Origin: Moorena bouillonii PNG
Lineage (GTDB): Bacteria; Cyanobacteriota; Cyanobacteriia; Cyanobacteriales; Coleofasciculaceae
NCBI RefSeq assembly: GCF_001942495.1
Contig: NZ_MKZS01000001.1
Location: 8,165,885-8,201,308 of the forward strand
Length of the DNA: 35,424 nucleotides
Reading direction: 5' to 3'
Shown: positions 3,768 to 35,424 of the stretch, piece by piece
Layout: each line of letters starts with the position of its first letter
How positions within the stretch are numbered: the stretch's first letter is position 1
The notes under the pieces: model-generated
What the model saw: the letters and a program-made list of their open reading frames with translations, nothing else
Told to the model about the DNA's origin: nothing
Databases searched by the model: none
Position numbers and translations under genes: made by a program

Positions 3768-3831
3768 TTGTTCTTTATTATTTGTAATTTTTTATATAGC
3801 AAAAGCAACAGGGAACAGGAAACAGGGAACA

Positions 3832-3894
3832 GGGAGTCGGGAGTCGGGAGTCGGGAGTCGGGAGTCGGGAGTCGGGAGTCGGGAGTCGGGAGTC
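3832..3894. repeat. STRR: nine tandem GGGAGTC heptamers
   Basis: Nine exact copies of a 7-mer lie in the hlyD-transporter gap. Short tandemly repeated repetitive (STRR) heptamers are known from filamentous cyanobacteria. The open frame that runs through here is only a product of the repeat. Confidence 0.9.
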
Positions 3895-3917
3895 AGGAAA
3901 ATCACAACCGTTGCTAA

Positions 3918-4075
3918 TCTAACTCTCCATCTCCCCATCTCCCCACACCTCCCAAACTTCCCACACTTCCCGATCTCCCCATCTCCCCACACTCCCCCAT
4001 CTCCCGATCTCCCCATCTCCCCATCTCCCGATCTCCCCATCTCCCCATCTCCCCACACTTCCCACACTCTCGACA
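3918..4075. repeat. Low-complexity CTCCCCAT/CTCCCGAT tandem tract
   Basis: Degenerate octamer-like repeats (CTCCCCAT, CTCCCGAT, ACACTTCC) fill the rest of the gap between the transporter and hlyD genes. A similar G-rich tract on the opposite strand occurs at 7970-8060. Confidence 0.85.
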
Positions 4076-4081
4076 CAGGGA

Positions 4082-18253: not shown

Positions 18254-18798
18254 GACATGAGTTGATGAGTTTAACGAAAAGGAATCCCTTTAAATTTATT
18301 TATAGCTCAGGCAGTTATTCACTTAAGCCAGGACAAGGCTATCGTGTGATCGGAAGCAACGGGAAAGGGTAAACGGGGAATACTTTCTGTTCTCAACTTC
18401 CCTGTTCTCAAGTTTTTCCTTGACCTTGAATGCCCCTGTTTAAATTAATTTTCAGTTAAATTTGGTAGCCCTAAGCCTTATATCCTATATTTTACTACAA
18501 AATCCTGAACTACCCCACCCTACCATCTAGATGTGCTCTGCTTAGCCATCGGACAAGATCCAGGTGTCTTGACTAAGCCATTGCTCTTCACAGCAGTTAC
18601 TGCAGCAATGCAACTGAGCTATAACGGAAGTATATCACCTTTACAAAAACTTTGGAAAAAAATCTGGAATTCTTCAGGGTCAATGGGTAGTTGACTGTAT
18701 TGCTCAGAAACACTCACATCAACCTGATTCTGAAACAAAAGCCAAGACAAACTCCTCTCTATCGAGCAAATTATAAAACATCATCAGAAATTAGCAGA
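18254..18798. other. Intergenic region upstream of the subtilase gene
   Basis: This is the divergent promoter region of the Fur-family gene and the subtilase. The first 230 bp contain a GGGAAAGGG/GGGGAA-type fragment of the dispersed repeats. No tRNA, riboswitch or clear operator is visible. If translation of the subtilase starts at TTG 18691, the last 108 bp would be coding. Confidence 0.4.
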
Positions 18799-21108
18799 AT
18801 GGAAAACATAGAAAGTCACGAACCAATGGTTCCAGGTATGACCAATGGTGGAGCAGCTACCAATGGCATGTCATTAGGAGAAATGGCTGATGACCAGATG
18901 TCATCCTTTGACATGAATGCTGTATCATTTCAAGGCAATATACCCACAGCAGTGCCAATGAGTTCATCTGTTCCAGATAGTCCTATGGAGAACGTGCTGG
19001 TAGAAATGCGAGCACCTAAGGGTCAAGGGGCTAACTTCTTTCACATGGCAGGAAGTTTCACGGTTCCTAGCTTCCAAATCGATTATGACTACGAGCCAGT
19101 ATCGATGGAGCCTGAGACACCGGAACTGGCCATGCAGCTCCAAGCATCTAATCAAGAGGTGATCGTTGTCAAGGGCAAAGTTGCTCAAAACCAAATTGCC
19201 GCCCTCGAAGCCCAACCTAATGTCATCAAAGTCTGGCAAGACACCGCGATCGAACCCTTCAGCACTACCACCCTACAGCAAGAGTATCCCATGGTAGAAC
19301 CGATGGCAGGGTTTGGTAGCTGTCCTATCGGTTCTTGTGACTGTAGCCCTGGGGCTGCTAAGGGAACTATGGCGGACGTAGCCAAATATCTTGGGGTTGA
19401 TCAAATTCACGCTGCTGGTTATAAAGGTCAAGGCATTGTTGTCGGTGTCGTTGATGGGGGAATTACAGCAGCTGGTCGTCCTGTTCGTCCCGGAGAACCC
19501 TCCAAGCGAATTCGCAATGTCATTGGTGGCTACCACCGCACAGTAGAATGGGGGACTCAAGCTCGCAGCTGGGGGGAACATGGCAATATGTGCGCTACAG
19601 ACGTGTTGGGTATGGCTCCAGAAGCCAAGCTCTATGACTTTCCCCTAGTAGGGAATGCTATCTCTAACGCCCTGGCTGCATTCAATTGGGCAATCAAGCA
19701 GTATAAAATTGACGGCACACCCCACATTCTCACCAATAGCTGGGGAATTTACCAGGAACAGTGGGATAAGACTTATGCCAGAAACCCAAACCATCCCTTC
19801 ACCCGTAAAGTTGTCGAAGCGATCAATCAAGGGATTCTAGTTCTGTTTGCCGCTGGTAACTGTGGTGGAACCTGTCCTGATGGTCGTTGTGCCTCAGATG
19901 TCGGTCCTGGTAAAAGTATCTGGGGCGCGAATGGTCATCCCCTAGTGATGACAGTGGGCGCAGTTAACAAAAATGAACAGTTTGTTGGCTATAGCAGCCA
20001 AGGACCAGCGGCTTTGTCCCCTAAAAAGCCAGACTTCTGTTCCATCACCCACTTCCGGGGTTACTTCCCCTCTGATAGCGGTACCTCGGCTGCCACACCA
20101 ATTGCTGCTGGAGTAGTAGCCTTGCTCAAGCAAGCCAAGCCGAGCTTGACTCAGCAGGAAGTTAAGAAACTCCTGGAGAGTACTGCTAAAAATATTGGTT
20201 CTCAGGGATGGGATCAGCATTCCGGTGCTGGCATTATTCAGCCCAAGGTAGCCTTTGACAAAATCAAAACTCCCCCACCCCGCCCTCGCCCCAGTGAAGA
20301 TACCTGGAGTGACTGGGAAAATCTAGGCGGCTATGGCCTATATAGCCCAGCGGCTGCTTCCTGGGGACCTAATCGGATTGACACCTTTGTGATTGGTACT
20401 GACCACGCTATGTATCACAAGTGGTGGGATGGCTCCGCTTGGCGCGGCTGGGAAAACTTAGGGGGTTACATTATTTCTGCACCCGCAGCGGTTTCTTGGG
20501 GAAATAACCGCATTGACACCTTTGTGGTTGGTAGCAATAATGCCCTGTACCGCAAGTGGTGGGATGGCGACTCTTGGCGTGGTTGGGAAAATTTAGGCGG
20601 CTACTGCCTGTATGCTCCAGCGGCTGCTTCCTGGGGACCTAACCGCATTGACACCTTTTTGATTGGTACTGACCACGCCGTCTACCACAAATGGTGGGAT
20701 GGCTCGGCTTGGCGCGGCTGGGAAAACTTAGGAGGCTACTCTATTTCTGCACCCGCAGCACTGTCTTGGGGTCCAAACCATATCGCTATCTTTACCATTG
20801 GTCGCGATCGCGCTCTATACTACAAGACCTGGAATGGTTCCATTTGGAGTCCATGGGAAAAATTGGGAGGCTACTGTCAGTATGGTGTAGCCGCTGTCTC
20901 CAGGGGAGTCAACCAGCTCGATTGTTTCGTCATTGGATCCATGGGCAAGGTCTATTGCCGTTCCTGGGATGGTTCTGCCTGGAAAAATTGGAAAAACCTA
21001 GGTGGTTACAGCATTGCTGGGGTAGCAGCAGCATCTTGGGGAGCTGACCGCCTTGATGTTTTTGTCGCCGCTGGTGATCATGCTCTGCACCACAAGTGGA
21101 TGGGTTGA
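18799..21108 (+). CDS. Subtilase (S8) protease fused to six PLL-lectin-like propeller repeats
   Basis: This is a serine protease with a C-terminal carbohydrate-binding-like propeller. The ATG at 18799 (MENIESHE) is the likely start; an in-frame TTG at 18691 adds 36 residues. Counting from that TTG: an inhibitor-like prodomain (about 100-190), then a subtilase domain with D255 (VVDGGI), H297 (GEHGN), oxyanion N390 (AAGN) and S466 (GTSAA), all intact. A Cys-rich patch [11 protein letters not shown] precedes the catalytic domain. After a Pro-rich linker (PPPRPRP) come six ~45-residue repeats of the pattern [34 protein letters not shown], as in Photorhabdus PLL-type lectins. No classical signal peptide is obvious. 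It is not PatA/PatG-like in architecture. Substrate unknown. Confidence 0.88.
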
Positions 21109-21529: not shown

Positions 21530-22678
21530 ATGATGGAAAGCACAGACTTGATCAATCAAAACCCAAGGTCGCCGATTCTCGTAAAAATGCCTGGAGAAGA
21601 TGGGTCAACTGGGTCAACTATTGATCAAAGTATGCCCACAGAGGTAGCGATTGAGCATGGTGTGAATACCTTGGTTAATGACGTAGTGGATCAAGCCTTA
21701 GTGCAGGTTAAAAGTAACCAAGAACTGCAATTAGTGCGGGAAAAGGTTGCTACGGTGATGGGAGATACCCTTAAGGAAATAGCTGCTGAACACCCTCAAT
21801 GTCAAAGCCCACTGGCAACAGGTGTTAGCCCAATGAATAATAATAATACTAATACTAATAATAGTGCAGTTGAGTGTGGTATCAGTGGGGCAAAGCAAGT
21901 TCAAGAGCTAGGCTTTACTGAGTTTACTGCTGGGCTGATCAACAGTGCATTCGACGCTATCATGGGTGCAACTATCAAGCAGATGGAAGCCTATCGGGAA
22001 CTTGTAGCCAATCTCGCTAAAACTCTGGCTCAGTTCCAGGCTGAGAATGTCTCTGATGCCCAAATTACTGACCATCTTGTCCAACACTACCCTGATGGTC
22101 CCGGAGGTACAGTTGTGCGTCCCAACTATACCTTTAAAACTATCCCTGCTAACCCCAACACTGGTACTCAAGAAAAGCCAGCCAATCACCTCTTAAGGGA
22201 AGTAGCTCAAGCTCTAGAAGCTGAAACCATTAATCTTACAAATCCTCTGACACTTACCATCCAAGAGAATCAGGAGAGATTCTTCACTAGCCAAGTCCAA
22301 GAGATTCGCTCGAAAATTGGTGAGTTACTAGCGACTAATATGATAGAGCATCTGCGGGCAATAGCACGGGAAGGAATGGCACGGATTGTAGTAACTGATG
22401 GGGAAATTGTCTCGAAGCTCACCTTCAATGTGACTGCTACTGAAGAACAAACAACAGGAAAAAACCAGTATCAGTATCAAGAAACCAACCCTTACATCAG
22501 AGGTCGTGCGGTAGCAGGATCGGGTAACGTTTCTGCTGGTGCTAGTCACAATAAACTCACCGTTAAGCCAGTGAATGAGAGTTCATTCGATGCAGTGACT
22601 ATGAGTACAGACATCATTGGTCAGGTTAAGATTCGCTTTAAGACTGAAACATTTCCACCAGTGGACAGGAATAGATAA
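21530..22678 (+). CDS. Hypothetical protein, 382 residues, not recognised
   Basis: I do not recognise this family. It has no signal peptide or membrane segment. The N-terminal ~190 residues are mostly helical and contain a low-complexity NNNNTNTNNS tract (about 103-112) encoded by AAT repeats. The middle (about 220-295) is helical with long amphipathic runs (FTSQVQEIRSKIGELLATNMIEHLRAIAREGMARIV). The last ~85 residues appear beta-rich (KLTFNVTATEE, AVTMSTDIIGQVKIRFKTE). It follows the subtilase gene after a strong terminator, so it is probably a separate transcript. The start could be either of two adjacent ATG codons. Confidence 0.7.
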   Translation: MMESTDLINQNPRSPILVKMPGEDGSTGSTIDQSMPTEVAIEHGVNTLVNDVVDQALVQVKSNQELQLVREKVATVMGDTLKEIAAEHPQCQSPLATGVSPMNNNNTNTNNSAVECGISGAKQVQELGFTEFTAGLINSAFDAIMGATIKQMEAYRELVANLAKTLAQFQAENVSDAQITDHLVQHYPDGPGGTVVRPNYTFKTIPANPNTGTQEKPANHLLREVAQALEAETINLTNPLTLTIQENQERFFTSQVQEIRSKIGELLATNMIEHLRAIAREGMARIVVTDGEIVSKLTFNVTATEEQTTGKNQYQYQETNPYIRGRAVAGSGNVSAGASHNKLTVKPVNESSFDAVTMSTDIIGQVKIRFKTETFPPVDRNR

Positions 22679-23316: not shown

Positions 23317-23770
23317 ATCAGTGTATCAATACCGTAGAGTGTACTATTTCTAAAGTTTGCAAATCCCTTTCAAAACTTGGAGTATAACCATGGCGCGATC
23401 GCTTTCAAACAAGTTTAAAATCGGCATATATTGATAAGTTTGGGGATTACCCTGATGGATATAAACAAACTGATAAACCAGACCATTAGTGGCTAATCCC
23501 CAAACAAATTCTTGATGCTCTAGGCTGTTGAAAGCATAAGTCAGTAATTGCGGTAAACCTGTAGACATCTCCAATAATCTGTAATCAAGTCACAGCAATC
23601 AAACTAAGGGGGTCAATAACTGATTCAAAATTTAGCCATAGGAACCATTTCATCAGGTTTTGGAGTCTCATTATCCAAATTTGGAGTAAAATTATGAGTC
23701 ATTACAATGTCAATTACTTGACCACATTCAGCCGATTCTATTATTTTTAAAATTAGAGAGCCAATGTCTT

Positions 23771-23817
23771 GATGCAGTCGCTCATGGGGGAAACCCCCAA
23801 GACCGCGCTGCATCGCT
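23771..23817. repeat. 47-bp palindromic element inserted in the IS5 transposase
   Basis: The outer arms are GATGCAG (23771-23777) and CTGCATC (23808-23814). The inner hairpin TGGGGG-AAA-CCCCCA lies at 23785-23799. TCTT flanks both sides (23767-23770, 23818-23821), suggesting a target duplication. Its insertion gives the transposase the abrupt tail SDAARSWGFPP. Confidence 0.6.
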
Positions 23818-24693
23818 TCTTAATCTTACTAAGCCACAAACAGTTAATATTACCGATTCATAACGCTTTTTAGTTAAACGAAATCTTTCTTGAATAATTT
23901 TAACTATTTTCACTCTTCTGATCAAATGCTCTACGAAAATTCGCGATTTTGATAAAAGTTTATTATCGGCTTTCTGTGAATCAGTTAATTCTCCATTTTT
24001 AGGTTTCTTAGACGGAGTAGTTATTTGCGCTTCTCCTACATAAGCTTTATCTCCACTAAAAAATTGGTGTTCATCAAATTTATTTAAAGTTTGGCGACAT
24101 ATTTTAAGGTCACTCATTGGCCCTGGTTTTCCCACAACTACATCAAGAATTTCTTGTCCTTTTGGTAAAACCACAAACTGACTTTTAAAAGTATGTCTTT
24201 TTTGTTTACCTGAATAATAGTTCTTTTGGGTTTGGTAGTCTAAAGGTCTCTCGATGACTTGCTCTGAACTATCTACTATCAATTCATAGTTGGTTAATTC
24301 TTCCTTAATCTGTTCTACTTCTTCCGGGAACTTTTTTACTTGTTCTAACCGACTTGGTGGTAAGGCTTCTTGAAATATTTTTTGCCAATAATTAAATAAG
24401 TTATGAGCCGTTGACTCGCTTACTTTAAAAAGCAAACCTAAAAGTTGAAAACTTAAGTTATGCCTCAGATAAACTAACATCAAAATTATTTGTTCTTCCT
24501 CAGATAATTTGGGATGATTACCACCTCCTGCTTTAATAAGTCTAATTTTAGTTTTTTCATTCTCTTGTTGTTTTTCTTTAGCTATAAGCTTTCCTTGCTC
24601 TATCAGTTTTATTAATTGCTCATAATTAATTCCTAATAACCTTTTTGTTTGTTTAGGGTGTTTTTGAATATATTCCCAAGTAGAATTGCTCAT
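23782..24693 (-). CDS. IS5-family DDE transposase with displaced C-terminus
   Basis: This 303-residue transposase has an N-terminal helical/HTH region (about 60-105; FQLLGLLFKVSESTAHNLFNYW) and a DDE_4-type catalytic core with D141 (LIVDSSEQ), D215 (FSGDKAYVG) and E255 (IFVEHLIRR). All three acidic residues are present. After VCGLVRLR the frame runs into a ~50-bp palindromic insert and stops. Downstream, in a shifted frame, sequence reading IGSLILKIIESAECGQV looks like the original continuation. The protein therefore probably lost its native C-terminal residues. Activity is uncertain because the catalytic core is complete. Confidence 0.85.
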   Translation of the reverse strand: MSNSTWEYIQKHPKQTKRLLGINYEQLIKLIEQGKLIAKEKQQENEKTKIRLIKAGGGNHPKLSEEEQIILMLVYLRHNLSFQLLGLLFKVSESTAHNLFNYWQKIFQEALPPSRLEQVKKFPEEVEQIKEELTNYELIVDSSEQVIERPLDYQTQKNYYSGKQKRHTFKSQFVVLPKGQEILDVVVGKPGPMSDLKICRQTLNKFDEHQFFSGDKAYVGEAQITTPSKKPKNGELTDSQKADNKLLSKSRIFVEHLIRRVKIVKIIQERFRLTKKRYESVILTVCGLVRLRSDAARSWGFPP

Positions 24694-25286
24694 TTTTCCA
24701 GATTATCTATGACTAATTCCTTCCATTATACTCTATTTTTAGAATTTTAAGGTATTATGGAGATGTCTTGTTGATACGTCAACGTCACTATTTTTGCTCT
24801 CCACTACCAAAATCCACAACGGGATAGCTTGTTGCCCTTGTCTGTTGACAGCAACAATATCGAAGCGCCCAGTGATGTAAGTATCCTCATCTTCGATGTA
24901 GATTCGGGCAATTTCTTCCTCAACATTGAGCTTAATGGGAGGGCGATGAAAACCTGCTAAACGTAACAAGGGCGCAACTGATACCAGGCGTACTTGTCCT
25001 TCGGAAACCTTACCTTCGAGCCAATAGTTCCTAAATTCATCCTGAATGTTAACAAGTTCCTCTTGTTCAGTTTCAGTAAGGGGTTCAAGGGTAAGTAGTG
25101 GTGCAAATAAGCCGTTGTACAGGGGTTTAATCCCTAGCAAATGGTGAACATCCTTCAGGGAGAGTTTACGGGCTTGTAAGGTTGTCATTTTTGATTGTTT
25201 ATGCCGTATAAGCTGATCAATAAAGCGGGTATCGCCATTTTTATGATAAGCTTTAATCTAACAAGTTTAAAATGACTAATAACTCT

Positions 25287-26432
25287 TCACCCCAAACCAT
25301 AAAAACGCATAGGATTATCCCACAGGATCTTTTGCACTATCTTCTGAGATAGCTTGTCCTGAAGTCCTACCATTTCTTCAATAATCTTGGGATTGTGGTC
25401 TATGTGAGGGTAGTCAGAACCAAAGATCAAGTTATCAGAACCGATGTACTTGATAATATCAGCTAGATAAGGCTCATCTGGCTCAATGGCAATGAAGCAC
25501 TGGCGACGGAAATACTCTGAAGGCTTCATCTTTACATGGTCTTTCACCTCCCAGGCCAGTTGATCGTACTCTTCATCTAGCCGCCACAGCCAGTAGGGAA
25601 GCCAACCGCAACCGGACTCAAGAAACGCTACTCTGAGATTGGGGTGACGCTCTAATACTCCCCCTTCGATCAGTGCCAACATTGCCATCATCTGTTCCAT
25701 GGGATGAGAGCAAGCATGCATGGCAAAACGGGTATTAAATCGATCTGATCCAGTGGTCGGTAATCGAGCATGGCTACCCTCATGAATGCCAACTGCTATG
25801 CCCAGCCTCTCACACTCCGTCCAAAATGCCTCATAGGCCGGGTCACTGAGCAGTCGTCCTTTAACCGGATTTGGCCGGACAAAGACAGCTTTCCAGCCAA
25901 ACTCTGCGATCCGATGTAATTCCGACACCATGTTGCTGGGGTCGTGTAGACTAATCGCTCCTACTCCTTTCAATAGTTGCGGGTCATAGCTGCAAAAGTC
26001 TCGTAACCAATTGTTGTAGGCACGGGTGAGTGCTGCTGCCAGTGGCGGATCCATAGTATCGATCGCCAACATCCACAATCCTGTAGTTGGATACAGAAAG
26101 GAAATATCCACACCCATCTGCTTCATGGCCTTGACCTGAGATTCTGGGCCAGAGCCTAGGTTTTTATTATAGGTAGCCTTGTTCCGGATTGCTACCTTAA
26201 TTCCTTCAGCCCAGACAGCATCGGATATCTTATTATAAATTGTCTCACCTTCCACTCTCATATACTTAGTTGGAGGGGAAAAGATATCAATTTTCACAAC
26301 CCCATCCTTTTGGGAGGGTTGATCTCGATAGGGTGCATGATTTTTAAATGCAGGTTCCAGGTACTTCTCCCACATATCTATCGGTTCATTCACATGGCCA
26401 TCGGCATCAATAATTTGATAGTCTTTCAGCAT
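25287..26432 (-). CDS. Metal-dependent amidohydrolase (Amidohydrolase_2/ACMSD-like) of the RiPP locus
   Basis: This 381-residue TIM-barrel protein has the N-terminal metal motif DADGHVNEP (D-x-D/G-H type), later candidate ligands in GIHEGSHARL and AMHACSHPMEQMMAM, and the C-terminal metal Asp in GSDYPHIDHNPK. The family (PF04909) includes decarboxylases such as ACMSD as well as hydrolases. It is the third gene after the RiPP precursor and YcaO gene on the same strand, 119 bp after YcaO with a TTAATTC repeat between. A tailoring role, such as follower or amide hydrolysis or C-terminal decarboxylation, is an inference. PurAH/BotAH-type amidohydrolases in bottromycin clusters are a precedent for pairing with YcaO. 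Confidence 0.85.
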   Translation of the reverse strand: MLKDYQIIDADGHVNEPIDMWEKYLEPAFKNHAPYRDQPSQKDGVVKIDIFSPPTKYMRVEGETIYNKISDAVWAEGIKVAIRNKATYNKNLGSGPESQVKAMKQMGVDISFLYPTTGLWMLAIDTMDPPLAAALTRAYNNWLRDFCSYDPQLLKGVGAISLHDPSNMVSELHRIAEFGWKAVFVRPNPVKGRLLSDPAYEAFWTECERLGIAVGIHEGSHARLPTTGSDRFNTRFAMHACSHPMEQMMAMLALIEGGVLERHPNLRVAFLESGCGWLPYWLWRLDEEYDQLAWEVKDHVKMKPSEYFRRQCFIAIEPDEPYLADIIKYIGSDNLIFGSDYPHIDHNPKIIEEMVGLQDKLSQKIVQKILWDNPMRFYGLG

Positions 26433-26462
26433 TGTTTTTCTATTGAAGGTTGTCTGTCAGAA

Positions 26463-26518
26463 TTAATTCTTAATTCTTAATTCTTAATTCTTAATTCTTA
26501 ATTCTTAATTCTTAATTC
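26463..26518. repeat. STRR: eight tandem TTAATTC heptamers
   Basis: Eight exact copies fill most of the gap between the YcaO and amidohydrolase genes. Confidence 0.92.
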
Positions 26519-26551
26519 AAAAAGGTTAGATGTTGGGAAACTTGTTGCTGA

Positions 26552-28825
26552 TCAGAAGAAAATCGGAAATGGGTTGAGTTGGTTTTCGTTGAGGGATTGT
26601 GGTAACTGACCCATCTGTACTGGCACATCATAAAGTCTTCCGGGAGCCCACCGTTTCCAAAAGTGTCGCAGACCAGGGACAATCACTTTGACAACATTGA
26701 GTCCAATATCGGGACGGGTTTGATCTAGAACCAGGGTTTCCATACTTTGCTTGGCAGCAATGTCTACACAGGTTTGAACATCGTCTCGCAGATCATCGCT
26801 GCTCAGTTGAGAATAATCGCTGTAGAGTTTTGGAGTAGTGTTTTCATCCGGTATCAGATACGGCTGATTCTCTAAGGTAGCCATTCGCCACCAGTCTATA
26901 GCTAACTCATCGGAGTAGTTGTATTTGGTGCTGCCATCGGGAGCTATGGATATAACCGCTGGAAGCATCTGGTTTAATTCCGTTAGCGATCGCATAATCC
27001 CAATTTTGGGGTCGAAATGAGCACCGAAAGCAAAAATGATATCTTCCACAGGTTGATCAATCCTCCTGGAAAGAGCAGCAAAGGCCGGAATCCCTAAATC
27101 GCTAGTGAGATCGAGTACCCAAAGTTCACGGTTGAGGGAATGGTAATACTCCTTAAGAGCTGTAAAATAGGGTTGGTTAAAACTGTCTAAATCCACAGCT
27201 GGTCGTTTGAGGCGGTTATACCACCACAGCGCTACACTATCTCGCTCTACCAACTCCATGAATCCTTGTAGGATTGCTTCTTCTTTGGTGTTGCCAGCAG
27301 CAGTACCATTGGAGTCTGCCCAACAATCTGGTTTAGAGGGTTTTGGGTAGCCGTAATAGCAGTAAGCTGTGGGTAAATACTTAAATGTTTTGTCAGTCAA
27401 AGACCAAATCGGTGTCCACTCAATCTCTCGTTCGGGATCAAAGGGTTCTGGAACCTTTTGAAAAAAGCTCGGACAGCTTTGATTCCAGTCCTGGCGGGTT
27501 TGGTATTGGCGATCGCTAAACAGCATACAAGCATTGGGGTGAATAGCCACATCCGCCATACTCTTGTAGCTACCTTTGCGTCGAATTTCGTCTCCCTGAA
27601 ACACACCAGAATATCTCTCAATCGCTTCCCCAAGGGCGCTGGCTTTTGCCTGAGCGTCAGTCTGTCCTTTGCCAGCACTTCTGCCACGCAAGTGTTTCCG
27701 CAAGAAGTATAAACTATCGAACATGCTGGCAAAATTATGTCCAGCTATATAGGTAGGGGTCAAATCGCTTTTTAACTTAGAAACTTTACTAATTCCTCTA
27801 ACTGCTCCGATTATCGGACTAATGTGGTGTTCGTATTGCTTAAGGGTTTTTTCTGGTGAAACACAACGGTGTCCACCATCAGCTGTAAAGGTTTTCTTCC
27901 GGCTTTCTAATAAAACTGGCAAGGGGTCTCTATCTCCTAGATAGCTTGAGTCGCCACAAGCAGGACATTGAGGACGCTTGACCAGAGTGTGATTTTTGGT
28001 TTCTAAGGATATGGTGTCAAAGGTGACCAGAGTCCCTTTGAGGGATGGATGGTCTCCCTGAACAATCCATTTGGCGATTTCAGTAGCCGCTAGATTCAGT
28101 CCAGTGTCTAGAGTAGACGGTAGTAAAGAGCGAGAAGTTGGGAAAGCCGTCGATATACTATTAGGTTGGCGATGTTTGCGCAGAAAATCTTCCACGGGGC
28201 GATTGGCTCGCAGCCGTTGGGCTAGACATTCCCAACACCCAGTTTTTCCAGGATCGAAAATCGGACCAATCCAAATCATTTTGCCCACTGGCTTGACCAG
28301 CATCCACGGACGCTGGGACTGTAAAGCCTTTTGATTGAACTCATCAAGACCGACTTGGAGATAGTCATCGGTTAATACAACAGCAATGTCTCCCTCCTCA
28401 GCCATCTGAATATTGAGTGATTCCAGGATCGCGATCAAGGGTTGGGTTGGAACTGTGCCAAAGGAAGTTACTGAAACCTTAGTAGATTGCAAGCGGCTGG
28501 TGGCTGTCGTGTGATCAACATTCAGAAAATTCCAGAAAGCTGCTACCTCTGATGGCATATCTGAGGCCATCGGGTTATCGTTTTCCACGATATAGCCTTT
28601 CTTTTCCATCAGCATCAAAGCATAGTAAATCTCAGCCGTGGAGGCTTGGCCTTGCAGCAGGTTAACCATGTCTTCCACGGAATGCTCGCCATCAATTAAA
28701 GGAGCTAATTGTTCATAAAGATCACCATTGAGAACAAAATACTCTGACTCGGACAGCAGAAAGACACCAACCGATTCCACATCTTCGATATGAAAGCAAG
28801 GTTTAAATTTAGGTTTGTTCAGCAT
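26552..28825 (-). CDS. Fused RiPP cyclodehydratase: RRE + E1-like + YcaO (TOMM azoline synthase)
   Basis: This enzyme would use ATP to convert Cys/Ser/Thr of a precursor peptide into azolines. Three regions are visible in 757 residues. A PqqD-like RiPP recognition element lies at about 10-85 (GVFLLSESEYFVLNGDLYEQL, HSVEDMVNLL). An E1/ThiF-like partner domain at about 115-300 has a tetra-Cys zinc site (C197, C200, C287, C290). A YcaO domain from about 315 has ATP-site motifs SALGEAIERYSG (397-408) and EAILQGFMELVERDS (516-530). The C-terminus NPFPIFF resembles the Pro-rich tail of azoline-forming YcaOs but is short. Oxidation to azoles would need a dehydrogenase, which is not seen nearby. The substrate is probably the NHLP peptide encoded at 29534-29860. 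Confidence 0.93.
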   Translation of the reverse strand: MLNKPKFKPCFHIEDVESVGVFLLSESEYFVLNGDLYEQLAPLIDGEHSVEDMVNLLQGQASTAEIYYALMLMEKKGYIVENDNPMASDMPSEVAAFWNFLNVDHTTATSRLQSTKVSVTSFGTVPTQPLIAILESLNIQMAEEGDIAVVLTDDYLQVGLDEFNQKALQSQRPWMLVKPVGKMIWIGPIFDPGKTGCWECLAQRLRANRPVEDFLRKHRQPNSISTAFPTSRSLLPSTLDTGLNLAATEIAKWIVQGDHPSLKGTLVTFDTISLETKNHTLVKRPQCPACGDSSYLGDRDPLPVLLESRKKTFTADGGHRCVSPEKTLKQYEHHISPIIGAVRGISKVSKLKSDLTPTYIAGHNFASMFDSLYFLRKHLRGRSAGKGQTDAQAKASALGEAIERYSGVFQGDEIRRKGSYKSMADVAIHPNACMLFSDRQYQTRQDWNQSCPSFFQKVPEPFDPEREIEWTPIWSLTDKTFKYLPTAYCYYGYPKPSKPDCWADSNGTAAGNTKEEAILQGFMELVERDSVALWWYNRLKRPAVDLDSFNQPYFTALKEYYHSLNRELWVLDLTSDLGIPAFAALSRRIDQPVEDIIFAFGAHFDPKIGIMRSLTELNQMLPAVISIAPDGSTKYNYSDELAIDWWRMATLENQPYLIPDENTTPKLYSDYSQLSSDDLRDDVQTCVDIAAKQSMETLVLDQTRPDIGLNVVKVIVPGLRHFWKRWAPGRLYDVPVQMGQLPQSLNENQLNPFPIFF

Positions 28826-28881
28826 GGTTAGTTTTTCTCTTTTCTCTAGGGAGGCATACTATCGCAAAGGCAACAGGGAAC

Positions 28882-28937
28882 AGGGAATAGGGAATAGGGA
28901 ATAGGGAATAGGGAATAGGGAATAGGGAATAGGGAAT
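28882..28937. repeat. STRR: eight tandem AGGGAAT heptamers
   Basis: Eight exact copies lie just upstream of the YcaO gene, within a GGAACAGGGAA-type dispersed repeat that ends in AAAATTCTCACAG. Confidence 0.92.
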
Positions 28938-29099
28938 AGGGCACAGGGAAGAAAAATTCTCACAGCAGCCTTAACTATGGCAGCATCATCAGCGGGCTAA
29001 CCTTTGACAATAAATCAATAGCCCTGTAATATAGTAATTAGTTGATAAAATTTACCGGACTTGCTAAATTTTAAGGCTGCTATAATTTAAGCAAGACAT

Positions 29100-29455
29100 G
29101 GTAAACTAGAAGTCTAGGGCTTAGCTTAAGATGACTAGCCCGGTTTGATCGAGTCGGTTTGATGAAGTGGAATTGATTGAGTAGGTGTACCGATACTCAA
29201 TCTGAGCCAACTAAGACTTATCCAAATAAGGGACTAAGCAACGGGCAGGTATAAAACGCCCGTTACCAGTCCAGATTGGCGGTAGCTAACCCCCCCGTCA
29301 GAGGTAAAGCCGGTTAGAGATAAAAATTGATAGGTTTGTATCTGGTTGCTCTATTAGGGTAATCGCTGACCATGGCCTGGTTTAATCAGGCTTAATAAAG
29401 CGTTTACCCGATAGGGCTTTCCTATCCTAAAGTCGATGGCGACTTTATGTTTTTG
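29100..29455 (+). ncRNA. Structured intergenic RNA region ending in a terminator-like hairpin
   Basis: Several perfect hairpins occur in series: ATTGAGTA/TACTCAAT (29176-29183 with 29194-29201), CTTAT/ATAAG near 29217-29230, AACGGGC/GCCCGTT (29240-29246 with 29258-29264), and a CTAAC/GTTAG pair spanning about 29287-29316. A final hairpin TAAAGTCG/CGACTTTA (29428-29447) is followed by TGTTTTT, a plus-strand terminator signature. I see no protein-coding potential. It may be a plus-strand RNA, a relic of an IS605/TnpB-type omega RNA, or structure in the minus-strand operon transcript between precursor and YcaO. The class is unidentified. Confidence 0.4.
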
Positions 29456-29533
29456 TTCAGACTGTTTGTTCAGACTGTTTGTTCAGACCTCTTCGGGGTA
29501 GTCATCTACTTTTCCCTAAAGCCACTAGGGATT

Positions 29534-29860
29534 TTAGCAGCACCCAGGAACGGCGGAGTCATCGATTACCGTCTCTTCGAACCAACTACTAATCTGTGCA
29601 TCTGTGAGGTCGCTGGGCTTAGCAGGGAGATTGATTTCATAGATCATTGCCCCGCCATCAGCGGTTGTAAGGGCTGGAGCCCCAGTAGAGCCCTGATTCA
29701 CCACCACGTTCACGAAATCTTCTACCACTAGTCCAGCTTCCCGAAGAATGTCCGCAGGAGCACTGACAAAGCGCTTACGGAATTCATCGTCGAGCCAGGC
29801 TTTGGCGACAAGTTGGGAAACAGTGGTTTCTAGGGTTTTCCAATTTTCGCTCAATTTCAT
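29534..29860 (-). CDS. NHLP-leader (nitrile hydratase-like) RiPP precursor peptide ending in Gly-Cys-Cys
   Basis: This small precursor (108 residues) starts at ATG 29860, with GGAG 8 bases upstream. The longer frame to 29950 lacks support. Residues 1-60 match the nitrile-hydratase-alpha-like leader (SENWKTLETTVSQLVAKAWLDDEFRKRFVSAPADILREAGL split across two helices). Then comes the INLPAKPSDLTDAQI segment (about 76-90) that in NHLP leaders normally precedes a Gly-Gly cleavage site. Here no GG follows it; the only GG is earlier at 69-70. The tail VIDDSAVPGCC ends in two Cys (107-108), natural substrates for heterocyclization by the YcaO enzyme encoded next. A first-gene position in a minus-strand operon is likely. 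Confidence 0.88.
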   Translation of the reverse strand: MKLSENWKTLETTVSQLVAKAWLDDEFRKRFVSAPADILREAGLVVEDFVNVVVNQGSTGAPALTTADGGAMIYEINLPAKPSDLTDAQISSWFEETVIDDSAVPGCC

Positions 29861-30183: not shown

Positions 30184-30789
30184 GATGTCGGTTATTTTAC
30201 CTATGAATTTGTGACAACCCTGCTGGGCCTCGGCGCGTTCGCCCTCATTGCCAATATGGATGCGCTGGTTGTGAAGCGGCTCTTTGATCCGGATGTTGCC
30301 GGCAATTACGGACCAGTTGTCACCCTGGGCAAGATAAATCTCTTTGTTCCCTTGGCGATGGGTTTGGTGCTATTTCCCAAGGTGACACAACGCCAGGCAT
30401 TAGGCCAGAATCCTCAGCCAATTCTCTTCCTATCTCTGGCCGTCACGATCCTGCCCGGGCTCATCGTCACCGCGCTCTACTTCTTATATCCGGGTCTCAT
30501 TGTGGAAACGATTTTCACGGACAGCTACCGCAATCCAGGACAGCTACTCGGGCTAGTGGGATTAGCAACCACGCTCTTTGCCGGCGTCAACATCTGGCTA
30601 AACTACGCGCTCTCTCTGGACAGAGCAACATTCGTTTATGTCCTGCTCGGGCTTGTGATACTCATGTTTCTTGGCATGGTCATCACCGGCTCCGCCCTCA
30701 TCAACATCGGCTGGACCATGGTCGCCACCGGCCTCCTTGCCAACCTCGCCGGCCTCATCCTCCTCGCCCCCATAAGACCAACCAGCTAG
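30184..30789 (+). pseudogene. 5'-truncated polysaccharide flippase (Wzx/MATE-like), C-terminal part only
   Basis: The frame is open from 30184, and the first plausible start is GTG 30211 (192 residues). It encodes six or so hydrophobic segments, with NMDALVVKRLFDPDVAGNYGPVVTLGK matching the region where the second half of a Wzx/oligosaccharide flippase begins. A complete protein would have roughly 200 more residues upstream, and none are present. The GC-rich codon use (CTC, GCC, ATC) differs sharply from the DNA just upstream. The truncation coincides with the composition change, so the break is due either to transfer/recombination or to assembly. Confidence 0.75.
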
Positions 30790-31004
30790 CCCCTCTCAAT
30801 TACTTACTTCTGCCAGCGAACGACAGTCAGCCCTCAGTTCAGGCATTGGCCGAGTTGGCATAGCTCGAAATCCAAGTTGAAATTGTTGGATCGAGCAGCA
30901 GTTAGCAAGCCAACAAGTAGGATTAGACCCGGGACCATCCCAGTCAGTCATATCATCATAATCGAACCAATAAGCTACTGGCCTTGCAGCAACTCAATTT
31001 TGTT

Positions 31005-33350
31005 TCAGAGAGACGCCAACGACCGGTCGAGCGCATCAACGAAAATCTCAGCGTGCTCTGGCCGGAAAACCAGTGGCGGTCGAATCTTTAGGACATTGCC
31101 ACCTACACCCGATTTTCCAACCAAAACGCCATTCTCCACGAGCAGATCCAATAGGCGTACCGTCTCTTCGGTAGCTGGCGCCCGACTCTCACGGTCCTTG
31201 ACCAGCTCAGCCCCGACCAACATACCGCGCTGGCGAACATCACCCAATATCTCGTACTTATCCATGAGCGCCGATATCCCCTCGCCCATTAACTTGCCCG
31301 TTACACCGGCATTTTCGATTAAACCTTCATTTTCGATCACGTCGAGCACAGCGTTACCGGCGGCACAGGCGACAGGGTTGCCACCGAAGGTACTAAACAG
31401 CCCTTTCGCGGTCATAAAGGCGTTCAAAATCTCCGGTCGCGTAATGACGACTCCAAGCGGGAAGCCATTGCCCACTGGTTTACCCAAAGTCACGATATCC
31501 GGCACGATCCCTTGCGCCTGATGTCCCCAGAGGTGCGTCCCGGAACGACCAAACCCAGCTTGTACCTCATCGGCAATAATCAGAGCACCGGCAGCCCGTG
31601 CCTTCTCGGTCACTTTCTGTAGGTAACCGGCCGGTACCCCCGGAATGCCATTGCTCACAAAAGAGCTATCGATCATGAAAGCGGCCGGCTCAAGCCCTTT
31701 TGCCCGCATATCTTCAATGGCCCGGTCCGAGTCAGCAGCATAGAGTGACGCTACATCGGGTGCGTCATAACCGTAAGGTCCCGTATACGGATCAGGTGAT
31801 ACAAATGCTTCCATGTGGGGCGCCAAGATGGCCCCAGAGCGTCCCGGGGAGAAGTCTGCGATGTCACCGGTGATACCGTGATAAGCCCCTTCGACGATGA
31901 GGCCGCCGGACCGGCCGGTAAAATGCCGCGCAAAGCGCCACGCCACATCATTCGCCTCGCTACCTGAGTTGACAAAGGTGCAAACGGCCAGATTGTCCCC
32001 CATCGTACTCGTCAACCGCTCTGCATAATCCAGGATGATTTCGTAAAGATAACGAGTGTTCGTGTTGAGGGCCGCCATCTGTCGCGACACAGCCCTAACG
32101 ACGTGGGGGTGACAATGACCAACCGAAACGACATTGTTGTATGCGTCTAGATAACGCTTACCGCTAGGGCTAAAAAGCCATGGGCCCTGCCCCCGCTCAA
32201 CATGAATCGGATTTGCATAGAAAAGGCGCAAGCTGGGGTCCAGAACACCATGCCGACGACCAATAAGTTGGGAGCGTTCGTCAGAAAGCGATTCACTTAC
32301 ATAACTCGGGAAGCGGCATACTTTACGGATACGGCGGCTTACTTCATCGCGACCTAGTCGACGCAATTCAACCATTGCGTGCCAATATTTGGCCTCATCA
32401 TCCGTATGGAAACCTTCCTGTTCGGGCGTTTCTGCCCGACGCCAGGCAATGATGACAGAGGTGGCTGCCAGACGAGTCAACGTCAAATCATAAATCAGGT
32501 CGATTTCCGCTTCTTCTAAAGGCATTACCTCATCAAAACCAGCCGCCATATTGGCCATGACGTCAACGGCGGCATCCGCGTCCAACCCACCCACGTCGTT
32601 AGCGATTGCCAGTTCAACAATGAGCGGCGCAAACACCATATCGCCGAAATCCAACAGGCCGGTGATCGTATCCGGGTCGGCTGGATCGATGAGGCAATTG
32701 CGCCCGTGGCCATCAGCATGAACGACCTGATGACGAAGCGTACGCATCTTCGGTAGCACGACGTCCCGGTGGTGCTCGAGAATTGCCCGAATATGTTCAC
32801 GCACCTCAGGATCAGGGACATGGTCGACATGGGGTAAATAAGCTGTGGAGCGGGTCAAATCCCAGGGATGCTCATTCCGGGCGGCGGGATGGAAGAAGCC
32901 ACGTAGAGCCAAATCTAGTCGAGCAAGGTAGCGTCCTAGGCTACGCCGTTGAGCCATCGAGCGAGGTACGCTTCCGGCGATATCTCCAGGTACGTAACTC
33001 AGCACCCGCATGATATGGCTCGTTCCATCCGGCCCCTCCATCATCGTGAATGGCTCGCCCCCATTTGTCAGAATCACGCGGGGCACAGACAGCTCCGGAT
33101 CTTGCTCTTCCAGGTAACGTAACGCCGCGGTCTGATACTCAATCACCTCGATCGATTCAGCCGAATTCGATATCTTGAAAACCACTTTATCCCCAGACTC
33201 GCTCTCTATGCGAAAATTCTGATCCCGTTCGCTATAAAGGGGGGCAAAGGTGCCTTCCAAACCATAGTGGGTTAGGGCTAGCTGCTTGGCAAACGCTTCA
33301 GGGAATTGGGGTTGGTTGCGATCAAGGAATTTTAGGGTGTTTTGACTCAT
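31005..33350 (-). CDS. Kinase-phospholyase fusion: APH-type kinase plus class III PLP aminotransferase-fold enzyme
   Basis: The N-terminal ~330 residues are a choline/aminoglycoside-kinase-like domain with catalytic HADGHGRN (H211, D213, N218) and DFGD (D234). The C-terminal ~430 residues are a class III aminotransferase fold with NSGSEAND (PLP phosphate site, 461-468), D594 (DEVQAGFGRSG) and PLP-lysine K624 (TLGKPVGNGFP). Fused proteins of this design are the bacterial counterparts of human hydroxylysine kinase and the AGXT2L1/AGXT2L2 phospho-lyases. The likely job is to phosphorylate an amino alcohol such as hydroxylysine or ethanolamine and then eliminate phosphate and ammonia. The substrate is not determined by sequence. 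A strong GGAGGAG site lies 8 bases upstream. Base composition is unlike the cyanobacterial part. Confidence 0.88.
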   Translation of the reverse strand: MSQNTLKFLDRNQPQFPEAFAKQLALTHYGLEGTFAPLYSERDQNFRIESESGDKVVFKISNSAESIEVIEYQTAALRYLEEQDPELSVPRVILTNGGEPFTMMEGPDGTSHIMRVLSYVPGDIAGSVPRSMAQRRSLGRYLARLDLALRGFFHPAARNEHPWDLTRSTAYLPHVDHVPDPEVREHIRAILEHHRDVVLPKMRTLRHQVVHADGHGRNCLIDPADPDTITGLLDFGDMVFAPLIVELAIANDVGGLDADAAVDVMANMAAGFDEVMPLEEAEIDLIYDLTLTRLAATSVIIAWRRAETPEQEGFHTDDEAKYWHAMVELRRLGRDEVSRRIRKVCRFPSYVSESLSDERSQLIGRRHGVLDPSLRLFYANPIHVERGQGPWLFSPSGKRYLDAYNNVVSVGHCHPHVVRAVSRQMAALNTNTRYLYEIILDYAERLTSTMGDNLAVCTFVNSGSEANDVAWRFARHFTGRSGGLIVEGAYHGITGDIADFSPGRSGAILAPHMEAFVSPDPYTGPYGYDAPDVASLYAADSDRAIEDMRAKGLEPAAFMIDSSFVSNGIPGVPAGYLQKVTEKARAAGALIIADEVQAGFGRSGTHLWGHQAQGIVPDIVTLGKPVGNGFPLGVVITRPEILNAFMTAKGLFSTFGGNPVACAAGNAVLDVIENEGLIENAGVTGKLMGEGISALMDKYEILGDVRQRGMLVGAELVKDRESRAPATEETVRLLDLLVENGVLVGKSGVGGNVLKIRPPLVFRPEHAEIFVDALDRSLASL

Positions 33351-33405
33351 CGGGTTTTCTCCTCCGGGGATTTTACTTGCCCCCCACCCGATTTAGCCAA
33401 TCAAA

Positions 33406-33435
33406 ACCCGTCGGGTCGGGGTAGACCCGTCGGGT
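33406..33435. repeat. Two copies of ACCCGTCGGGT upstream of the kinase-phospholyase
   Basis: The near-palindromic 11-mer occurs at 33406-33416 and 33425-33435, 19 bp apart. It could be a pair of operator half-sites or a dispersed repeat. It is located in the leader of the minus-strand gene. Confidence 0.4.
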
Positions 33436-33494
33436 TGGTAGGAACCCCTCACCGCGACAAAAGTAAATCATCTCTCATTGACAGTTAGTAACCC

Positions 33495-33534
33495 TTGTGA
33501 TAATCTTCACAATGCATTGTGAACTATATCACAA
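33495..33534. promoter_or_regulatory. 40-bp nested dyad operator candidate
   Basis: The outer arms TTGTGATA (33495-33502) and TATCACAA (33527-33534) and the inner perfect palindrome CACAATGCATTGTG (33508-33521) share exactly the same centre (33514.5). The dyad sits in the intergenic region between the divergent kinase-phospholyase and DUF1992 genes. Such symmetry fits cooperative binding of a dimeric or tetrameric regulator (GntR- or MarR-like half-sites). No regulator gene lies in the window. Confidence 0.65.
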
Positions 33535-33641
33535 TCAACGTTTCCAATGATTGATGAGGGCACGCCCGCCCAGGCCCACCCAGGGCTGCTTGTTACGCCG
33601 CCGTTGCACCCACTCAGCTGTGGCAAAGGAATAAGTTACCC

Positions 33642-34058
33642 ATGAACATTGATGAACATATTCAGCAAGCTCAAAAACAAGGTGCATTCGATAACCTGCC
33701 CGGCCAAGGTCAACCAATTAAGTTGGCTACCAACGCTTTCGCCGGTGACGAAGCACTCGCGTTTGATATTCTCAAGCAAGCTGGTTTTACACCCAGCTGG
33801 GTTGATGAGCGCAAAGAGATTGAGGCAGACATTGAGCGCACAATGAAAGCTGTCAATCGCTCCTGGCAACTGGTTGAAGGCAATTATCGCCGTGACCAAC
33901 GCTGGCTCAAGGCGGAAAAAACCTTCCGCGAGAGCATCCTCCGTGTTAACCAAAACATCCGAACCTACAATTTAAAGACGCCGCCTGGCATACCTCATCT
34001 CGTTGAAATCAACGTCGAGCGAGAGCTGGTTAAGATGCGTCGCCTAAGTGGCATCTAA
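33642..34058 (+). CDS. DUF1992 (DnaJ-homologue-domain) protein
   Basis: This 138-residue protein begins MNIDEHIQQAQKQGAFDNLPGQGQPIKL, the hallmark FdNLpGkGkPL motif of DUF1992. The rest is helical, with charged amphipathic segments. In longer relatives the domain is attached to a J-domain; here it stands alone. The molecular function is unknown. It is followed 12 bp later by a strong terminator and is divergent from the kinase-phospholyase gene across a symmetric operator candidate. Confidence 0.9.
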   Translation: MNIDEHIQQAQKQGAFDNLPGQGQPIKLATNAFAGDEALAFDILKQAGFTPSWVDERKEIEADIERTMKAVNRSWQLVEGNYRRDQRWLKAEKTFRESILRVNQNIRTYNLKTPPGIPHLVEINVERELVKMRRLSGI

Positions 34059-34070
34059 AGAATATAGTAG

Positions 34071-34102
34071 AGACCCTGGCCTACCCCGCCAGGGTCTTTT
34101 TT
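34071..34102 (+). terminator. Rho-independent terminator of the DUF1992 gene
   Basis: AGACCCTGGC (34071-34080) pairs perfectly with GCCAGGGTCT (34088-34097) around a 7-base loop. The hairpin runs into TTTTTT. It starts 12 bp after the stop codon. Confidence 0.92.
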
Positions 34103-34158
34103 GTTATTCAGGCTAGTCTAGAGGTTTTTTATCGATACCGGCCGGTCTTCACACCCTA

Positions 34159-34173
34159 CCGGAACGGTTCCGG
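34159..34173 (+). promoter_or_regulatory. Hairpin just before the ABC exporter start codon
   Basis: CCGGAAC-G-GTTCCGG is a perfect 7-bp stem with a 1-base spacer, ending two bases before the ATG at 34176. It occupies the place of a ribosome site, so it may reduce initiation there or indicate that translation begins elsewhere. Confidence 0.35.
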
Positions 34174-34175
34174 GA

Positions 34176-35424
34176 ATGTCCGCGCACAACAGCCAACCTG
34201 ACCTCACGCTCCTGCGCCATTATCTCAGCCCGCAATGGCGACGTGTGGGCCTCCTCGGTTGCCTGCTACTCATCACCATCGCTCTACAACTTTATGCACC
34301 CATAATCCTCGGTCAATTTATCGATGACGCGCGGGCCGGAGCACCGTTAAACGGACTCTACCTGATGGCCCTTGGCTTCATCGGCCTAATCGCGGTGGCT
34401 CAACTATTTTCGGTGATGACCAGCTATCAGGCAGAGATAGTAGGTTGGACAGCCACCAACGCCTTGCGCTCTGACCTGACCCGGCACATCCTCAATCTTG
34501 ATCTAAGATTCCATAATCGCTATACCGCTGGCGAGCTTATCGAGAGAGTAGACGGTGATGTCGGCACCTTACATCAATTTTTCGCTCTCTTAGTTGTACG
34601 GATTATTGGCAATGCTTTGTTATTGATTGGATTGTTGATTGTTCTGTTCTGGCAAGACAGCTTAATCGGATTAGGTGTCCTGGCGTTTGTCATTGTGATC
34701 GCGATCATCTTTTATCGCATTCGGCATTTGGCGGTTGAGGCGATAATCAAGGACCGACAGGCGACAGCTGATTTGGGTGGTTTCTGGGAAGAGCATCTGT
34801 TGGCAACGGAGGATTTGCGGAGCAATGGGGCCGTTGACTATGTCCTCAATCAGCAAGGCCCCCTTCATTGGCAGGTTTTGCAAGCGACACGAAAGGCCCG
34901 TTTTCTGGGCTGGAGCATGCATGGGAGTTACATCGCGCTCCATATCTTTGGCTATGCGCTAATCTTTGTTTTGGGTGGCTATCTTTATCTGCAGGGAGAC
35001 GTGACGCTAGGCACGGTCTATCTCGTTTTTCATTACCTGGGCTTGGTGGTCGTCAATTTGCGGGCGTTTGTGCGGGAGCTGGACACCTTGCAAAGGGCCA
35101 GGGCGAGTTTGTCGCGGATACGCGGACTGTTACGTGAAAAGAGCTTGCTAGGCACCAGAGATGAAACCGGGTATGCTGCCATTTCCCCAGCTTATCTCCA
35201 GTTTACCGATGTCGCTTTTGCCTATGGGGAACAACCTGTTTTGCAGGGGGTGACGTTTGGGCTGCAGAAAGGGGAGCGGATGGCGCTGTTGGGGCGGACG
35301 GGGAGTGGTAAGAGCACGATTGCCCGGCTGCTTTTCCGCTTTTACGATCCGCAGGTAGGTCAGATTCGTCTGGGTGGTGAGCCATTGCAAGGTTTGCCTT
35401 TATCGGGTTTGCGGCGGCGTATTG
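34176..35424 (+). CDS. ABC transporter, exporter type with fused membrane and ATPase domains; truncated by window end
   Basis: The frame is open from ATG 34176 to the end of the window (416 codons seen). An N-terminal type IV ABC membrane domain has about six hydrophobic segments, starting WRRVGLLGCLLLITIALQLY. It includes the coupling-helix region LDLRFHNRYTAGELIERVDGDV, where such exporters typically read F.....GEL.sRl..Dv. The ATPase domain begins near FTDVAFAYGEQPVLQGV. Walker A LLGRTGSGKST (about 371-381) and the LFRFYDP segment follow. The signature and Walker B motifs lie outside. Substrate unknown: drug, lipid or peptide exporters share this design. It follows a terminator, so it is transcribed separately. 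Confidence 0.88.
   Translation, partial: MSAHNSQPDLTLLRHYLSPQWRRVGLLGCLLLITIALQLYAPIILGQFIDDARAGAPLNGLYLMALGFIGLIAVAQLFSVMTSYQAEIVGWTATNALRSDLTRHILNLDLRFHNRYTAGELIERVDGDVGTLHQFFALLVVRIIGNALLLIGLLIVLFWQDSLIGLGVLAFVIVIAIIFYRIRHLAVEAIIKDRQATADLGGFWEEHLLATEDLRSNGAVDYVLNQQGPLHWQVLQATRKARFLGWSMHGSYIALHIFGYALIFVLGGYLYLQGDVTLGTVYLVFHYLGLVVVNLRAFVRELDTLQRARASLSRIRGLLREKSLLGTRDETGYAAISPAYLQFTDVAFAYGEQPVLQGVTFGLQKGERMALLGRTGSGKSTIARLLFRFYDPQVGQIRLGGEPLQGLPLSGLRRRI

Follow-up and report, generated by a model that had tools for sequence, protein, structure and literature searches.

The locus studied here raises the question of what is made where a small protein with a nitrile hydratase leader peptide (NHLP)-type leader, a YcaO cyclodehydratase and a protein carrying an amidohydrolase label are encoded side by side. 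It lies in a 35,424-nt stretch of the Moorena bouillonii PNG genome (NZ_MKZS01000001.1, positions 8,165,885-8,201,308, forward strand), hereafter the window, in which all three open reading frames (ORFs) proposed by the initial annotation were recovered on the minus strand at the coordinates it gave: the 108-residue precursor (29534..29860), a 757-residue fusion of a RiPP recognition element (RRE; RiPP, ribosomally synthesized and post-translationally modified peptide), an E1 domain and YcaO (26552..28825), and a 381-residue PF04909 protein (25287..26432), proposed here to be a dinuclear oxygenase and oxidative decarboxylase. The model that we favor, and consider reasonably probable, is that the YcaO enzyme would form an azoline acid at the precursor's C-terminus, from which a LynB7-type oxygenase would produce an azole with loss of CO2, in a kinase-linked system with a probable signaling role.

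A conserved three-gene cassette

A survey of 386 cyanobacterial genomes (threshold E 1e-60) detected an ortholog of the PF04909 protein, at 59% or more, in 19 genomes, the remaining matches at that threshold lying at 35-40%. A YcaO gene was found on the same strand within 2 kb of this ortholog in 15 of the 19 and within 11.1 kb in 18; in the nineteenth genome (G235), the PF04909 gene is truncated and YcaO sits on a separate contig. Among 20 named loci fetched by their YcaO gene, 11 contained the PF04909 ortholog, including a contig of a Parabeggiatoa metagenome-assembled genome (MAG; L013). The complete trio of precursor, YcaO and PF04909 genes recurred in three more Moorena sources (L007; L008, on the same contig as L078; L128) and in the named loci L009-L013, and three of the four Moorena genomes searched carry the cassette, with G386 bearing a second, Nostoc-type one (L126). 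These observations show that the three genes form a conserved RiPP-type cassette, beyond chance. The initial annotation had envisaged, as grounds for abandoning its proposal, that the YcaO and amidohydrolase genes might never co-occur with NHLP precursors; the opposite was observed across loci, and its reading of the locus as a coherent RiPP-type system with a tiny C-terminal core is supported.

Precursor tails and the cyclodehydratase

The window precursor gene, with GGAGA ahead of its ATG, encodes a folded leader (residues ~1-95) followed by the tail FEETVIDDSAVPGCC, which terminates in VPGCC. Its TIGR03793 match (E 1.9e-9, 37.3 bits) stays under the curated cut-off of 50.9; the precursor family profile matched the nitrile hydratase alpha subunit (2.4e-14) and the proteusin MprE7 (8tb1; 2.3e-9), and 8tb1 and nitrile hydratases were also the top matches of the structure model. 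Together with the VPGCC end, these matches bear out the earlier description of an NHLP-leader peptide ending in GCC. In this precursor, the segment that runs from the L(X)4I helix to the tail contains no GG leader/core boundary. The proposed modification site comprises the Gly-Cys-Cys codons (29537..29545, minus strand), and the Moorena relatives end in GSC (L007), GTC (L008) and ACC (L128).

The composition of the tails was assessed by a masked search, in which the final 12 residues of each ORF were hidden and leader profiles were taken from 11 already known precursors. This search returned 39 matches with 34 distinct tails (including those of L099/L100 and L101, whose fetched flanks contain no oxygenase), and Cys, Ser or Thr occupied positions 1 to 7 from the end in 31, 30, 24, 6, 4, 1 and 8 of the 34, respectively. 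The unmasked list, for which the background frequency is 0.136, gave counts of 33, 30, 22 and 5 of 36 at positions 1-4; because some of these rows had been chosen by their tail pattern, the masked count is the control to trust. Judged by their sequences, the precursor tails fit the substrate of a terminal-azoline decarboxylase: such an enzyme would need a free azoline carboxylate, and therefore the cyclized residue would have to be the last. Separately, NHLP-like precursors ending in ACCCCCPCCTCT were seen near YcaO and SagB genes, without an oxygenase, in L099 (1614-1976) and L100 (3856-4218).

Nostoc-type cassettes encode much longer precursors of ~350 residues that end, with small variants, in PYPY[IL]PLS and then one to three more residues; the two tested gave no Pfam match, and L083, L084 and L092 contain two such genes each. 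When long and short precursor profiles were aligned, only the leader end matched (25 columns, probability 48%, E 1.8e-4). Support for their homology beyond this alignment appears modest: an SQLIAKTW-like helix pattern occurs in 29 of the 37 listed precursors, and the short forms come next in the long-form profile search at E 0.017-1.5. In the tail-masked search, the short, middle and long profiles returned hit sets that were largely separate.

The fusion protein consists of a winged helix (residues 7-80), a TIGR03882 region (172-342) and a YcaO domain (384-720), and scores above the cut-offs of both TIGR03604 (279.5 bits; cut-off 219.25) and TIGR03882 (172.7 bits; cut-off 36.9), with LynD, MusD and TruD as solved relatives. 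It can thus be assigned to the thiazole/oxazole-modified microcin (TOMM) cyclodehydratase family, and azoline formation is predicted. In a YcaO tree of 55 proteins, a single 35-member clade (98/95) contained 30 of the 31 linked sequences; L079, on a long branch, fell outside it. Beside this divergent cassette (L079, 12536-15115) lie genes for two short proteins of NHLP-like type and for a Dyp-type peroxidase, and a related pair is present in L017.

The PF04909 protein and the dinuclear oxygenases

The nearest relatives of the PF04909 protein are dinuclear oxygenases, PtmU3 and AibH2 among them. The six dinuclear metal ligands (D-x-H, H, E, D-x-x-H; D11, H13, H217, E272, D340 and H343 in the window), judged against the AibH2 residues as given in PMC7782822, were kept in all 30 distinct full-length cassette proteins, and 29 of the 30 carry an additional Asp (D345 in the window) where PtmU3 has Glu313. 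The spacing of the window ligands (H-E 55, E-D 68) equals that of LynB7 (197-252-320), and in the 361-residue cassette members the ligand residue numbers are identical to those of LynB7, a Moorena enzyme described as converting thiazoline-4-carboxylate to thiazole by oxidative decarboxylation (PMC10127204). A likeness to LynB7/BarH is accordingly seen for the Asp and the spacing. The protein is closest to the dinuclear oxygenase branch, to which we predict that it belongs, and its amidohydrolase label would need correcting.

That the protein instead trims the tail hydrolytically, or decarboxylates it as a Zn enzyme without oxidation, by analogy with bottromycin biosynthesis, seems improbable and is not preferred because oxygenases outrank such enzymes (PtmU3 3.8e-42 against 1.1e-18 for the best decarboxylase); all six dinuclear ligands are kept, and the other PF04909 enzymes covered in PMC7782822 and PMC10811679 are described as mononuclear or cofactor-free. 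Decarboxylation, which the initial annotation had offered beside trimming, was a good guess. The parallel that it drew with bottromycin-type amidohydrolases, read as hydrolytic trimming, is not supported: the protein matches the dinuclear oxygenase branch of PF04909, and LynB7, its best functional analog, has a stated identity of only 14% to PurAH of the bottromycin pathway (PMC10127204). As it had reported, the window yielded no flavin dehydrogenase of the SagB type (one is present in L009, L011 and L012); its corollary that the product may stay at the azoline stage is doubtful because a LynB7-type enzyme would itself aromatize the ring.

Linkage to a giant kinase

In 17 of the 18 genomes that allowed the distance to be measured, the PF04909 gene has within 7 kb a giant Ser/Thr kinase of Pkinase-AAA_16-GAF architecture, continued by AAA_35 (L085) or by a histidine kinase (Moorena, with a HisKA-HATPase C-terminus); this count omits G360 (kinase on another contig) and is uncorrected for kinship between genomes. 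Random placement predicts 0.42 linked genomes, from kinase counts that may be low given that at most 33 candidates were scored per genome, and none of 200,000 simulations rose above 5. Among the matches listed with two candidates scored per genome, 16 of the 386 genomes had a kinase at 59% or more to the L085 one; 13 of these genomes have the PF04909 ortholog and three (G091, G237, G320) a related YcaO. No such kinase was found in the fetched flanks of loci outside the YcaO clade, save L079, which has both kinase and oxygenase.

In Moorena G386, the precursor and kinase genes are divergent, with the kinase start 1.6 kb from the precursor; the two genes are also divergent in L009-L012. In the window genome, the kinase (G000:C1:8219738-8224924) lies beyond the window, with a 23.6-kb stretch in between; because homology to G386 ends at window position 30200 and returns 23.6 kb on, just ahead of the kinase, we read this stretch as an insertion. 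A short RRE-E1-only YcaO relative (L113, G000:C1:2832000-2851900) was also noted 5.6 kb from the same genome's second full-length kinase of the cassette-linked family. The initial annotation had noted neither the kinase linkage, nor the ~350-residue precursors of related cassettes, nor the stretch in front of the kinase in this genome. The kinase neighborhood in relatives hints at a signaling role of the cassette, and since the giant kinase is co-inherited, a signaling circuit is probable in which the modified tail acts as a signal or as a regulated product.

A different view of the kinase, which rivals the signaling role and leaves the chemistry untouched, is that the cassette makes an ordinary secreted TOMM natural product and that the kinase is merely a cluster regulator. 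This is a substantial possibility, to which we assign somewhat less than even weight. Burkholderia NHLP-type TOMM clusters include a large Ser/Thr kinase (PMC2887384, Figure 2 legend), the Moorena kinase scores 116 bits in its AAA part (cut-off 705.75) against TIGR03903 ("TOMM system kinase/cyclase fusion"), and the window has a C39-type exporter with HlyD 18.4 kb away; set against these are the leader end without a GG site and the exporter matches above 500 residues, which, in the limited flanks of the other fetched loci, came only from L023, L101 and L103, all without the oxygenase.

Proposed pathway

In the favored model, the RRE of the YcaO fusion would bind the folded NHLP leader by contacts with the leader's first helix and with the L(X)4I motif, and YcaO would cyclodehydrate the terminal Cys, a place taken by Ser or Thr in relatives, probably together with one or both preceding residues, leaving an azoline-4-carboxylic acid at the C-terminus. 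The PF04909 protein, with a dinuclear non-heme metal center of the LynB7 type and O2, would then attack ring carbon 5, CO2 would leave, and the end product would be a protein terminating in a carboxyl-free thiazole or oxazole. For one C-terminal Cys, the exact mass shift to look for would be -64.016 Da (-18.011 and -46.005), with a further -18.011 for each additional azoline, as calculated by hand. A more specific proposal is that the NHLP protein stays uncleaved and unexported in the cell, where the kinase reads its carboxyl-free C-terminal azole, whose formation would require sufficient O2, metal and ATP; we regard this as tentative and rather doubtful. Gene content, linkage, ligand conservation and tail composition are what the sequences establish, whereas the catalytic steps, the order in which they occur and a role in signaling are inferred.

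Several observations weigh against the favored model. In G387, one of the four Moorena genomes searched, a PF04909 search at E 1e-5 came back empty, and L016, L097 and L098 contain precursor and kinase with no oxygenase in the fetched flanks. The tails SCL (L088) and TFF (L024), both beside an oxygenase, and GCL (L014) lack a terminal Cys, Ser or Thr, L018 carries His at the extra acidic position, and Ser/Thr-derived rings are not among the LynB7 substrates described in the portion of the literature available to us. The likeness to LynB7 is one of ligand numbers, not of alignment, the PF04909 structure model is moderate (pLDDT 68.9, low near residues 220-241 and 342-347), and the tie between kinase and peptide is gene linkage only. 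Moreover, PF04909 proteins that are not beside YcaO (L114, L115) have the same ligands; therefore the ligand set is diagnostic of the kind of oxygenase and not of the decarboxylation.

The enzyme might be a dinuclear oxygenase that hydroxylates the precursor elsewhere, for example at a conserved Pro or a beta-carbon, with the carboxylate retained. PtmU3 and AibH2 are described as hydroxylases (PMC10401708, PMC7782822) and ligands do not reveal the reaction, the PYPY[IL]PLS segment is conserved in long precursors, and the SCL and TFF tails would suit such an activity. Hydroxylation elsewhere leaves unexplained why Cys, Ser and Thr are enriched in the last three residues only, and the ligand numbering is that of LynB7; we consider this alternative unlikely and retain oxidative decarboxylation as the favored reaction.

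Comparison with known systems

LynB7 and BarH, from the lyngbyapeptin B and barbamide pathways (PMC10127204), share with the cassette enzyme the PF04909 fold, the ligand set and, in 361-residue members, the ligand numbers, and a C-terminal Cys-derived thiazoline acid would suit them as substrate; LynB7, compared by ligands only, acts on a nonribosomal peptide synthetase (NRPS) product, whereas the Moorena cassette has YcaO and an NHLP precursor. The proteusin/NHLP azoline systems MprE-MprC-MprD (PMC12455567) and nostatin A (PMC11583998) likewise use an NHLP leader and an RRE-YcaO with helix and L(X)4L contacts. Unlike these, the cassette has no GG boundary and a core of about three residues at the extreme end, an oxygenase in place of the flavin dehydrogenase, some precursors of ~350 residues and a linked kinase. 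In bottromycin biosynthesis, a terminal thiazole also arises from thiazoline by oxidative decarboxylation (BtmJ; PMC5103208), but through a P450 after follower removal, whereas the cassette precursor ends in its Cys from the outset and the enzyme proposed is a PF04909 oxygenase. The Burkholderia clusters (PMC2887384; TIGR03903) resemble it in NHLP-type precursor, fused cyclodehydratase, large Ser/Thr kinase and related AAA region; the cassette kinases differ in ending with GAF plus histidine kinase or AAA_35 and score far under the TIGR03903 cut-off. We found no open-access paper that describes this cassette, a YcaO pathway with a PF04909 oxygenase, or the kinase linkage of such cassettes in cyanobacteria.

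Other features of the window

Both gaps within the cassette (26463-26518 and 28880-28945) contain, by eye, short tandem repeats of TTAATTC-like and GGGAATA-like units. Outside the cassette, a 1.7-kb stretch (23566..25270) with ORFs at 23782-24693 (transposase-like by eye) and 24739-25188 is missing at this place in Moorena G386 (blastn, L128 against the window), and comparison with G386 assigns 30201..35424 to the left part of the 23.6-kb stretch that separates precursor and kinase, within which an APH kinase-aminotransferase fusion is encoded (31005-33350). A Subtilase fused to a beta-propeller-lectin-like part (18691-21108) and an adjoining protein without known family (21530-22678) also neighbor the cassette in L007, L008/L078 and L128 and were not found at the other loci; this Subtilase, beside the cassette in Moorena loci only, was considered as a candidate leader protease. 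The HlyD-type adaptor and cyclic nucleotide-binding C39-peptidase ABC exporter (2187-6859) are type I secretion-like, and their membership in the cassette is unsupported, given their distance and the absence of the oxygenase from those other fetched loci that gave long matches. An Rfam scan of the window gave no match at gathering scores.

Implications

If the favored model is true, a tailoring reaction of NRPS pathways, the PF04909 oxidative decarboxylation of a terminal thiazoline, would enter ribosomal peptide biosynthesis, and an "Amidohydrolase_2" protein beside YcaO should not be taken as a hydrolase. The linkage of one kinase family across cyanobacteria and one Parabeggiatoa MAG contig provides a handle on the cellular role of these peptides. 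Should the modified protein indeed be retained and read in the cell, RiPP chemistry would serve as a protein end-mark in signal transduction, on precursors of ~350 residues in Nostoc-type cyanobacteria. As predicted from the sequences, this widespread gene set would probably serve to build an aromatic ring from the C-terminal residue of a small protein.
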